From assembly GCF_020614395.1 (NCBI RefSeq), contig NZ_CP085324.1:1183564-1247563 (forward strand): DNA of 64,000 nt. The letters run 5' to 3'. Under the pieces are notes generated by a model that saw only the letters and a list, made by a program, of their open reading frames with translations, was not told where the DNA came from and ran no database searches. Position 1 is the first letter of the stretch. Each line of letters begins with the position of its first letter. Positions 47,051-48,470 of this stretch are shown one piece after another. A program made the position numbers and the translations under genes. Source of the stretch: Salarchaeum japonicum (GTDB lineage Archaea > Halobacteriota > Halobacteria > Halobacteriales > Halobacteriaceae).

Positions 47051-47063
47051 GTGACGGCGAGAA

Positions 47064-47069
47064 TTTATA
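47064..47069 (+). promoter_or_regulatory. TATA box of the small Cys-rich gene
   Basis: TTTATA centred 27 nt before ATG 47093, almost consensus. It lies 14 nt after the SDR stop and supports the 77-aa start. Confidence 0.65.
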
Positions 47070-47092
47070 CCGTATCGGGTCCCTGGGTCGGT

Positions 47093-47326
47093 ATGGACGA
47101 CGTCGAACTCGACGAACTCGTCTCCGCGCTGACGCCGCGCGAGGAGAACCGCGCGCTGAAGACGTACCAGAACACGGTCTCGGTCGCCTGTCCCGCCTGC
47201 GGCGACCCGTTCGACGACCTCGTCGTCTGCAAGGAGAACCCGACGAGCCTCAACCTCTCCCAGCAACTCGACTTCTGCGTCGGCGTGGACGACGACCGCG
47301 CGCTCATCTTCACGCACAAGCGGTAG
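47093..47326 (+). CDS. Small zinc-ribbon-like protein (DUF7385-type)
   Basis: 77 aa. CPACGDPFDDLVVCKENP has a CxxC plus third Cys, and a fourth Cys occurs in LDFCVGVDDDRALIFTHKR, so a zinc site is plausible. An N-terminal acidic helix (MDDVELDELVSALTP) precedes it. I recall related haloarchaeal proteins labelled as flagella-cluster proteins, but the name is not firm and no motility gene lies nearby. The start is fixed by a near-consensus TATA box. Confidence 0.72.
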   Translation: MDDVELDELVSALTPREENRALKTYQNTVSVACPACGDPFDDLVVCKENPTSLNLSQQLDFCVGVDDDRALIFTHKR

Positions 47327-47393
47327 GCCGTCGCGGACTGACAGCGCGCGCGGAGATGCAAAGAATCATACGCGATACTGTGCGAGAGCGTGT

Positions 47394-47513
47394 ATGAGCG
47401 TTGACGACTGGGACGCGACGGCGGGGCGGCCGCGCGCGCCCGGTGTCACCGCGGGAGCGCCAGCGAACCGACGCGTAGCGTGGTCGGCGTCGCCGGTGAC
47501 GCGCGATGTGTGA
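47394..47513 (+). CDS. Candidate 39-aa leader peptide or mini-protein
   Basis: ATG 47394 opens 39 codons (MSVDDWDATAG... ending SPVTRDV) to TGA 47511. It overlaps the start of the wHTH gene (47506) in another frame. A weak AT-rich element (AGAATCATA) lies about 27 nt upstream. No similarity is recognised; the composition (Arg, Ala, Pro rich) is not clearly protein-like, so this may be chance. Confidence 0.25.
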   Translation: MSVDDWDATAGRPRAPGVTAGAPANRRVAWSASPVTRDV

Positions 47514-47844
47514 GGATGAACGCGTCGTCTTGTCCCTCCTGGACGACGAGTACGCCCGGGAGATTCTCAAGGAGACGAGCGTCGAGCCGCTGTCCGCGAA
47601 GGCGCTGACGGAGCGCTGTGACGCCTCCCCGCCCACGATTTATCGGCGGCTCGACCGCCTCCAGGAGCAAGACCTCGTGGTCGAACGCCAGCGGCTGTCG
47701 GCGGACGGCAACCACCACGCGGTGTACTCGGCGACGTTCGAGCGCGCGGTCGTGGAACTCGAATCCGGCGACCTCGCGGTGGAGGTGTTCGTTCGGGACG
47801 ACCCCGCAGACCAGTTCACGCAGTTGTTCGAGGGGCTCCGATGA
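47506..47844 (+). CDS. Winged helix-turn-helix regulator (ArsR-like) of the twin-membrane-protein module
   Basis: 112 aa. VVLSLLDDEYAREILKETSVEPLS begins the wHTH, and AKALTERCDASPPTIYRRLDRLQEQDLVVERQ is the recognition helix and following turn, with a wing GNHHAVYSATFER. A C-terminal acidic part follows. No in-frame start exists between a TGA at 47497 and ATG 47506. Its stop overlaps the start of the first small membrane protein (ATGA), so the regulator is translationally linked to it. Confidence 0.82.
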   Translation: MCEDERVVLSLLDDEYAREILKETSVEPLSAKALTERCDASPPTIYRRLDRLQEQDLVVERQRLSADGNHHAVYSATFERAVVELESGDLAVEVFVRDDPADQFTQLFEGLR

Positions 47845-48158
47845 ACGTCGGCGGCGTCTCCGTCACGACCAGCGGCGGCACGCCCCTGCTCGTCGTCGGG
47901 CTGTTCTTCAGCGTCGCCCTCGCGACGGTTCTCGGCGGCGTGCTCGTCGTCCGCATCGGCCGCGGCTACCGCAGAACGGGGAGCCGGCACTTGCTCGCGC
48001 TCGGCGTCGGTTTCCTGTTCGTGGTGCCCGTCCCGAAGCTCCTGAACCTCTCGCTCTCGACGGGCACCGCGCTCTCCTACGACGCCATCGCGCTCGGCGC
48101 GTCGGTCGCACAACTCCTCGGGTTCGCCGTCATCCTGTACGCAATCTATGACACGTAA
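47841..48158 (+). CDS. Small membrane protein (DUF7521-like), copy 1
   Basis: 105 aa with three predicted spans: about 17-37 (LLVVGLFFSVALATVLGGVLV), 48-70 and 83-102. The loop between them holds a basic GRGYRRTGSR motif. It overlaps the wHTH gene by 4 nt. Its fold and size match the next protein, suggesting duplication. I believe this is the haloarchaeal DUF7521 group, recurrent next to wHTH genes; no function is known. Confidence 0.72.
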   Translation: MNVGGVSVTTSGGTPLLVVGLFFSVALATVLGGVLVVRIGRGYRRTGSRHLLALGVGFLFVVPVPKLLNLSLSTGTALSYDAIALGASVAQLLGFAVILYAIYDT

Positions 48159-48185
48159 CGAGACCGCACGCCGGGGTGGGACGCG

Positions 48186-48470
48186 GTGAGTTCGCTCGCA
48201 ACCGTCGCGACGTGGCAGGTCGTCCTCGACGCCTTCCTCGTCTGCGTCGGCGGTCTCGTGAGCGTGCACGCCTACCGGGGGTATCGGCGCAACGACAGCA
48301 CGGCGATGCTCGCCGTCTCGGTGGGGACGCTGGTGCTCGTGCTCGCGCCGTTCCTCCTCGAATACGTGTTCGAGGCCGCCACGGTTGTCACGCCCCTCCA
48401 GAGCGCGGTGCTCCGGCAGGCCGCGGACAGCGTCGCCGTGCTCGTCATCCTGTACGCGCTCCTGCGTTAG
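48186..48470 (+). CDS. Small membrane protein (DUF7521-like), copy 2
   Basis: 94 aa, GTG start, three predicted spans. HAYRGYRRNDSTAMLAVSVGTLVL matches the basic loop plus second span of copy 1, and QAADSVAVLVILYALLR aligns with LLGFAVILYAIYDT at the end. Both thus form a paralogous pair with the same order loop-TM-TM. The stop overlaps the end of the convergent GT87-like gene by 4 nt. Possibly a sensor or anti-regulator of the wHTH protein; this is only inference. Confidence 0.68.
   Translation: MSSLATVATWQVVLDAFLVCVGGLVSVHAYRGYRRNDSTAMLAVSVGTLVLVLAPFLLEYVFEAATVVTPLQSAVLRQAADSVAVLVILYALLR

Follow-up and report, generated by a model that had tools for sequence, protein, structure and literature searches.

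Does a small regulator encoded next to small membrane proteins work together with them, or do the genes simply share an operon? The window analysed here, a 64,000-nucleotide stretch of the Salarchaeum japonicum genome (2.34 Mb, two contigs), raises this question through a gene for a winged-helix (wHTH) regulator that runs directly into a gene for a membrane protein, itself followed by a second gene of the same family. Two described systems offer points of comparison. In Bacillus subtilis, the gene for the small wHTH autorepressor SdpR precedes that of a small polytopic membrane protein, SdpI, and membrane sequestration of the regulator has been proposed (PMC1626106). In Sulfolobus acidocaldarius, the small GntR regulator YtrASa is encoded by the first gene of an operon shared with Saci_1850, a membrane protein of unknown function; its binding site lies over the start site, its regulon is very small, and it has neither a known ligand nor a known contact (PMC6746942).

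The locus in the window resembles the first system in its gene order, a small wHTH gene and then a small membrane protein gene. However, neither protein matches the corresponding family: the wHTH scores 22.6 bits against the NCBIfam SdpR model NF033789 (cut-off 100), twins A and B give no SdpI-family match in Pfam or NCBIfam up to E = 1, and a linked toxin operon was not recognised. The likeness to the second system is that of an archaeal two-gene operon combining a small regulator with a membrane protein, but YtrASa belongs to the GntR/YtrA family, for which the wHTH reaches just 12.3 bits (cut-off 27). In what follows we argue that the wHTH and its DUF7521 partners may constitute an autoregulated split one-component switch, in which the membrane protein would hold or release the regulator, a reading that we judge to have an even chance of being right.

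Organization of the locus

The features of the locus are listed in Table 1. The ATG of twin A and the stop codon of the wHTH gene share the sequence ATGA (47841-47844), and twin B starts 27 bases past the end of twin A. The module of the window thus consists of a wHTH of the same family as its relatives elsewhere, directly upstream of DUF7521 on the same strand and with overlapping gene ends. The ORF positions bear out the original prediction of a wHTH gene coupled through ATGA to a three-span membrane protein gene, as well as that of a 39-codon frame lying across the wHTH start: the mini-ORF encodes 39 amino acids and its TGA coincides with bases 6-8 of the wHTH gene. The second membrane gene had been described as a paralog of the same size; it is a paralogue, both proteins belonging to DUF7521, but a diverged one (36% identity over 72 residues), and the sizes differ (94 versus 105 residues).

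Table 1. Features of the wHTH-DUF7521 locus (positions within the window)
Feature	Positions	Strand	Description
Dyad, candidate operator	47366-47397	.	32 bp, TCATACGCG-N14-CGTGTATGA; overlaps the probable promoter and the mini-ORF start
Mini-ORF (39-codon leader ORF)	47394-47513	+	stop overlaps the wHTH start (ATGTGTGA)
wHTH gene	47506-47844	+	winged-helix regulator, 112 aa; HTH_20 39.0 bits (cut-off 27)
Codons 100-111 of wHTH gene	47803-47838	+	C-terminal amphipathic helix, motif DQFTQLF; proposed partner contact
Twin A	47841-48158	+	DUF7521 (PF24365) 37.9 bits (cut-off 27); 105 aa
Twin B	48186-48470	+	DUF7521 (PF24365) 38.1 bits (cut-off 27); 94 aa, GTG start

The module is flanked upstream by a DUF7385 gene and a short-chain dehydrogenase gene and downstream, on the opposite strand, by a gene for a GT87 glycosyltransferase. 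A cysteine motif, CPACGDPFDDLVVC, is visible inside the DUF7385 gene (47051-47326; 120 bits).

Pairing of wHTH and DUF7521 genes in Halobacteria

Of 242 Halobacteria genomes, 240 contain DUF7521, with 1 to 12 matches in each and mostly in several copies. One high-scoring match per genome was analysed at 90 loci (L011-L040 and L105-L164), a sample drawn from the top of the ranking and biased to typical members. At these loci, 90 of 93 DUF7521 ORFs are preceded on their own strand by a wHTH of the same family, with an exact four-base overlap in 69 of the 90 pairs; in the reverse direction, 87 of 90 wHTH ORFs adjoin a DUF7521 ORF. The three exceptions comprise a wHTH frame that runs past the DUF7521 start (L127) and, as classified by eye, a different regulator (L143) and an ORF resembling that of a TnpB-type transposon (L162). 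In the window's own family, for which all matches in 26 genomes were crossed without selection for top scores, 106 of 127 DUF7521 matches follow a wHTH (104 of the 111 above the Pfam threshold), the other 21 having no such gene alongside, and 103 of 136 wHTH matches have a DUF7521 partner. Inspection of 20 of the 33 partnerless wHTH matches revealed three whose partner falls below the sensitivity of the Pfam search (L178-L180), one fragment (L184) and 16 that stand alone. Seventeen of the 21 DUF7521 matches lacking a wHTH were likewise inspected, and 11 of these loci represent one recognisable solo subfamily.

In the S. japonicum genome, all five DUF7521 matches and all four wHTH matches belong to the same four modules. 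Altogether, the four-base overlap occurs in 108 of 148 unique modules. These adjacency counts are ORF-based, gene-caller neighbourhoods having dropped many small DUF7521 genes. The pairing is near-obligate in Halobacteria, far beyond chance, so that its recurrence, which a synteny search had been proposed to check, holds both in the 90 loci (90/93) and in the window's own family (104/111). The other haloarchaeal pairs, with an HTH_20 wHTH upstream of DUF7521, show the same order and overlap as the window, whose twins are members of that family; what sets the window apart is a second, diverged DUF7521 gene and the leader ORF of its genus.

Neighbouring genes were considered as a guide to function, and this approach was abandoned: 73 clustered neighbourhoods revealed no common target, and the commonest cluster besides the two families comprises 17 loci, about 15 of which represent one shared locus. 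That the modules have different neighbours from locus to locus counts in favour of the switch proposed above. The distribution also bears on the idea of an immunity module, in which the membrane proteins would protect the cell from extracellular peptides (halocins or SDP-like toxins) and the regulator would induce them on arrival of the peptide. SdpI provides the model, being described as both the immunity protein and the receptor that sequesters SdpR (PMC1626106). Yet a family carried by 240 of 242 genomes, usually more than once, does not look like immunity to a specific toxin. The clusters of the 73 neighbourhoods, named by eye, included no recognisable genes for toxins or export that recur, and neither membrane protein has a PADLOC match. 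We consider this explanation scarcely credible. A defence system was rejected as well, the PADLOC matches of the wHTH being weak (the DNA-binding part of Csa3/CARF regulators, 9.4e-7 at best) and those of the twins nil.

A C-terminal helix of the regulator is tied to the partner

The AlphaFold model of the wHTH protein (pLDDT 90, pTM 0.79) shows the wHTH followed by two more strands and by a C-terminal helix (residues 100-111) that is loosely placed against the core and has a pLDDT of about 54-55. In Foldseek the fold is ArsR-like, with Phr of Pyrococcus furiosus (2p4w) as the best match (E 1.7e-5, TM 0.71 for the query length). The sequence scores below the ArsR/SmtB cut-offs, with 23.1 bits for NF033788 (cut-off 55) and 14.9 bits for HTH_5 (cut-off 22). 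Phr, the closest solved fold, has about 198 residues against 112 in the wHTH; it is not known to need a partner and has a role in heat shock. In the wHTH, a ligand domain is not evident beyond the short tail.

The helix motif, DQFTQLF in the window (residues 102-108), reads DRFxxLW or ERLxxLW elsewhere. It was scored within the last 30 residues as [RQKNH][FLIVM]xx[LIMF][WFVL], a pattern composed after inspecting the linked sequences. By this measure 146 of 148 partner-linked wHTHs carry the motif, against 1 of 16 unlinked relatives, counts that refer to related sequences and not to independent events, the unlinked ones spanning several visibly different types. The two linked proteins that miss the pattern (L159 and L104) still terminate in VSLWSELR and VDVWSDLR, while the single unlinked wHTH that keeps it is that of L185. 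All three proteins first scored as unlinked but found to have a partner (L178-L180) carry the motif. In the unlinked wHTHs of L182, L187, L189, L194, L196 and L197, a different tail, of the ..PFAD or ..ALD type, replaces it.

The main rival of sequestration is a plain local repressor of the YtrA kind: the wHTH would repress the operon and would itself sense a small molecule or a stress, while the DUF7521 proteins would be effectors, for example in envelope or ion homeostasis, making no contact with it. The nearness of the fold to Phr, an archaeal heat-shock regulator, would suit such a function. So would the example of YtrASa, which represses its own operon and one other membrane-protein locus (PMC6746942). 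A plain repressor does not explain, however, why regulators with a partner have the C-terminal helix motif and those without one generally lack it; it equally fails to account for two results described below, the conservation of the cytoplasmic side of DUF7521 and the occurrence of one membrane family behind two families of regulators. On balance we regard it as unlikely.

Conservation of DUF7521 is one-sided

Three spans are apparent in the twins from hydropathy and from the model of twin A, which is of modest quality (pLDDT 73, pTM 0.48), places helices at residues 15-46, 49-75 (broken) and 80-103, and gave no match in the PDB with E <= 0.001. Lysine and arginine are frequent in the loop that joins spans 1 and 2 (92, 81 and 78% at positions 41, 44 and 45). 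By the positive-inside rule, K/R-rich loops face the cytoplasm, so that the loop and the C-terminus are probably cytoplasmic. Entropy averages 1.71 bits over the 38 positions of this presumptive cytoplasmic side and 2.52 bits over the 52 outer positions (p 2e-6). The conserved motifs on the cytoplasmic side are RGYRR in the loop and Y-A/S-L/I-Y at the C-terminal end.

Taken together, the partner-linked helix, the cytoplasm-side conservation, the tight gene overlap and the retention of an adjacent regulator across families (see below) point to contact between the wHTH and DUF7521. In the mechanism that we infer from these sequences, the wHTH would bind its own promoter at the candidate operator and keep the operon low. 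The DUF7521 proteins would sit in the membrane, where a membrane-borne signal would change their state; the RGYRR loop and the C-terminal end would then capture the wHTH by way of its C-terminal helix, and capture would release the operon and any other target. In the branch to which the window belongs, a single regulator would serve two diverged membrane subunits, which perhaps form a hetero-oligomer. By analogy, sequestration of the SdpR/SdpI type would be the most economical version of a two-part switch, and its chances appear to us roughly even.

The same anatomical facts would also fit a membrane-docked active regulator, with DUF7521 recruiting the wHTH into a complex that acts on DNA from the membrane, in effect a transmembrane transcription regulator made from two genes. 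Regulators of this transmembrane type occur widely among both bacteria and archaea (PMC10269533), but they have the DNA-binding and the transmembrane segments in one polypeptide, whereas the window has two separate ORFs. Fusion would be the simplest form of such a device, yet no wHTH-DUF7521 fusion ORF exists among 177 loci, a result that also removed fusion proteins from consideration as proof of contact. We therefore hold docking to be rather improbable, though nothing in the present data separates recruiting from sequestering.

Coevolution of the two proteins was analysed as well. The wHTH and DUF7521 trees agree (rho 0.80, the highest of 300 shuffles being 0.117), an agreement that simple linkage alone would also give. 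Inter-protein covariation was calculated from 150 pairs (effective number 44). The top covarying pair joins the two proposed motifs, F108 of the wHTH and A101 of twin A, and largely separates two clades. Among the top 20 pairs, five involve the C-terminal helix (2.9 expected) and two link the helix to the cytoplasmic side (0.9 expected), neither excess being significant. Given this lack of enrichment and the clade split underlying the top pair, covariation was discarded as support for contact.

A separate feature of the family concerns the interior of the membrane. In 30 non-redundant pairs, the acid at position 87 in span 3 accompanies K or R at position 25 in span 1 (typically lysine) in 11 of 18 cases, and is found in 0 of 12 without K or R (twin A numbering). 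Positions 25 and 87 may form a charge pair inside the membrane; since twin A has V25 and A87, this possible sensing pair is absent from the A protein of the window.

A candidate operator and a probable leader ORF precede the regulator

The arms of the dyad are complementary at 8 of 9 positions. In G010, the only congener that the family search yielded, the arms are identical (18/18) and the 14-base spacer is identical at 10 of 14 positions, while the stretch just upstream is poorly alignable. Searched with a spacer of 12-16 bases, the dyad pattern occurs once in the S. japonicum genome, where it is thus unique to this promoter, and once in G010; it is absent from 25 other genomes, and a backward control pattern gave no matches. 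The dyad is a candidate for the operator of the wHTH operon. It spans an AT-richer stretch some 27 bases upstream of 47394; if a leaderless transcript begins at 47394, this stretch could serve as its TATA box. Inspection by eye of relatives from other genera showed a TATA-like box about 25-30 nt before the wHTH start.

The mini-ORF starts within the right arm of the dyad and ends within the wHTH start, a placement suggesting that its predicted translation could feed that of the wHTH. In G010 it also opens with MSVDDW and closes with PVTRDV before the stop, the frame being kept despite indels that sum to 21 nt. Mismatches between the two species fall 10/7/18 by codon position (binomial p 0.02), in an alignment whose protein guidance is itself a bias toward coding; they mildly favour a coding mini-ORF, and the operator alone could explain why the first codons are kept at the DNA level. 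No leader ORF was seen when upstream regions of relatives from other genera were compared by eye, making the leader, as far as seen, a feature of the window's genus. Judging from the two species compared, that genus probably translates the mini-ORF as a leader.

The twin form is old

The 13 named loci nearest to the window's wHTH belong to Natrinema, Halosimplex, Halopiger, Haloarchaeobius, Natribaculum and Haloterrigena. Twelve have twins, and in the remaining one (L177) no DUF7521 was found. Nineteen two-gene modules were found automatically, 16 of the window's kind and three (L016, L117 and L122) with a different arrangement. In 16/16 twin modules the A protein has its nearest relatives among the A proteins of other genera (L171, one such neighbour, had been filed as single but carries twins), and in 12/16 the B protein has its nearest relatives among B proteins of other genera. 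In the window and G010, and likewise in two Haloarchaeobius loci, the closest relatives of the B proteins after each other are single DUF7521 proteins. Tandem duplication was rejected as the origin of the twins, as the grouping of A proteins across genera indicates an old pair, that of B being weaker. The three-gene form therefore predates the genus of the window, a conclusion firmer for A than for B.

DUF7521 outside Halobacteria and relation to described systems

In a sample of the phylum, 95 of 294 genomes match DUF7521, 43 of them outside the order. Seventeen of these 43, picked among the better scores, were examined. Three of them (L219-L221) all have the same wHTH immediately upstream of DUF7521, with a tail that reads ADRLASMW or AERLASLW. 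The other 14 genomes gave 15 matches, and 11 of these 15 DUF7521-like ORFs (L223 and L227-L236) come immediately after an Lrp/AsnC-like gene, which most of them touch or overlap. An Lrp/AsnC-like gene comes after the DUF7521-like ORF in L225, and none adjoins upstream in L224, L226 and L237. Six of the 11 regulators were scanned, all with an AsnC HTH and an AsnC ligand-binding domain; the single membrane protein scanned from these loci passes the DUF7521 cut-off with 28.8 bits. It follows that the membrane protein retains a regulator while the kind of regulator changes. A further ORF is located after the DUF7521-like gene in L226, L234 and L235, and those of L234 and L235, when scanned, had no Pfam match.

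It seems conceivable, although we rate the idea at somewhat under even, that DUF7521 is an ancient archaeal membrane switch family whose members are each wired by gene order to their own regulator, exchanged in the course of evolution: haloarchaea and one other lineage would use a Phr-like wHTH, other classes an Lrp/AsnC-type protein. A typical haloarchaeon would then possess several insulated membrane-to-promoter circuits of a previously undescribed kind, and the window would hold a two-subunit version with a leader-ORF-coupled regulator. With DUF7521 in nearly every sampled haloarchaeon and most examined copies joined to a regulator, the pairs, if they are switches, would represent a common archaeal membrane-to-promoter route using two genes of about 100 codons. 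Haloferax volcanii has DUF7521, which makes the switch idea readily testable.

No paper was found under the name or accession of DUF7521 in the literature covered, which excludes most subscription journals, and none describing the wHTH-DUF7521 pairing, as judged by titles, abstract openings and passages. The "dark matter" islands paper contains no such regulator-membrane pair in the portion covered. From the parts of the sources available, CsmR of H. volcanii was rejected as a member of the same family, being an Lrp-like protein near archaellins, and MM2440-MM2441 of M. mazei was rejected as a comparable pair, the regulator being the second gene. What is new here is the wHTH-DUF7521 family with its partner-linked helix, its two types of regulator and its twin form; a regulator with a membrane partner was known as a kind, as was the Pfam name.

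Solo and mobile members of the family

The solo DUF7521 subfamily (ANAYLxTERREML...AAAIATTVSAF), which has no adjacent wHTH, is found at L202-L209, L211, L213 and L214. Proteins resembling it are also present in L224 and L237, from other classes.

On the second contig of S. japonicum, another wHTH-DUF7521 module (L041:2416-4525) is directly followed by an arylsulfotransferase-like gene. DUF7521 proteins identical to that of this module are encoded, next to the same neighbour, on plasmids of Haloarcula marismortui and Halobaculum; the module therefore moves between plasmids. The named plasmid records annotate the pair merely as a helix-turn-helix protein and a hypothetical protein.
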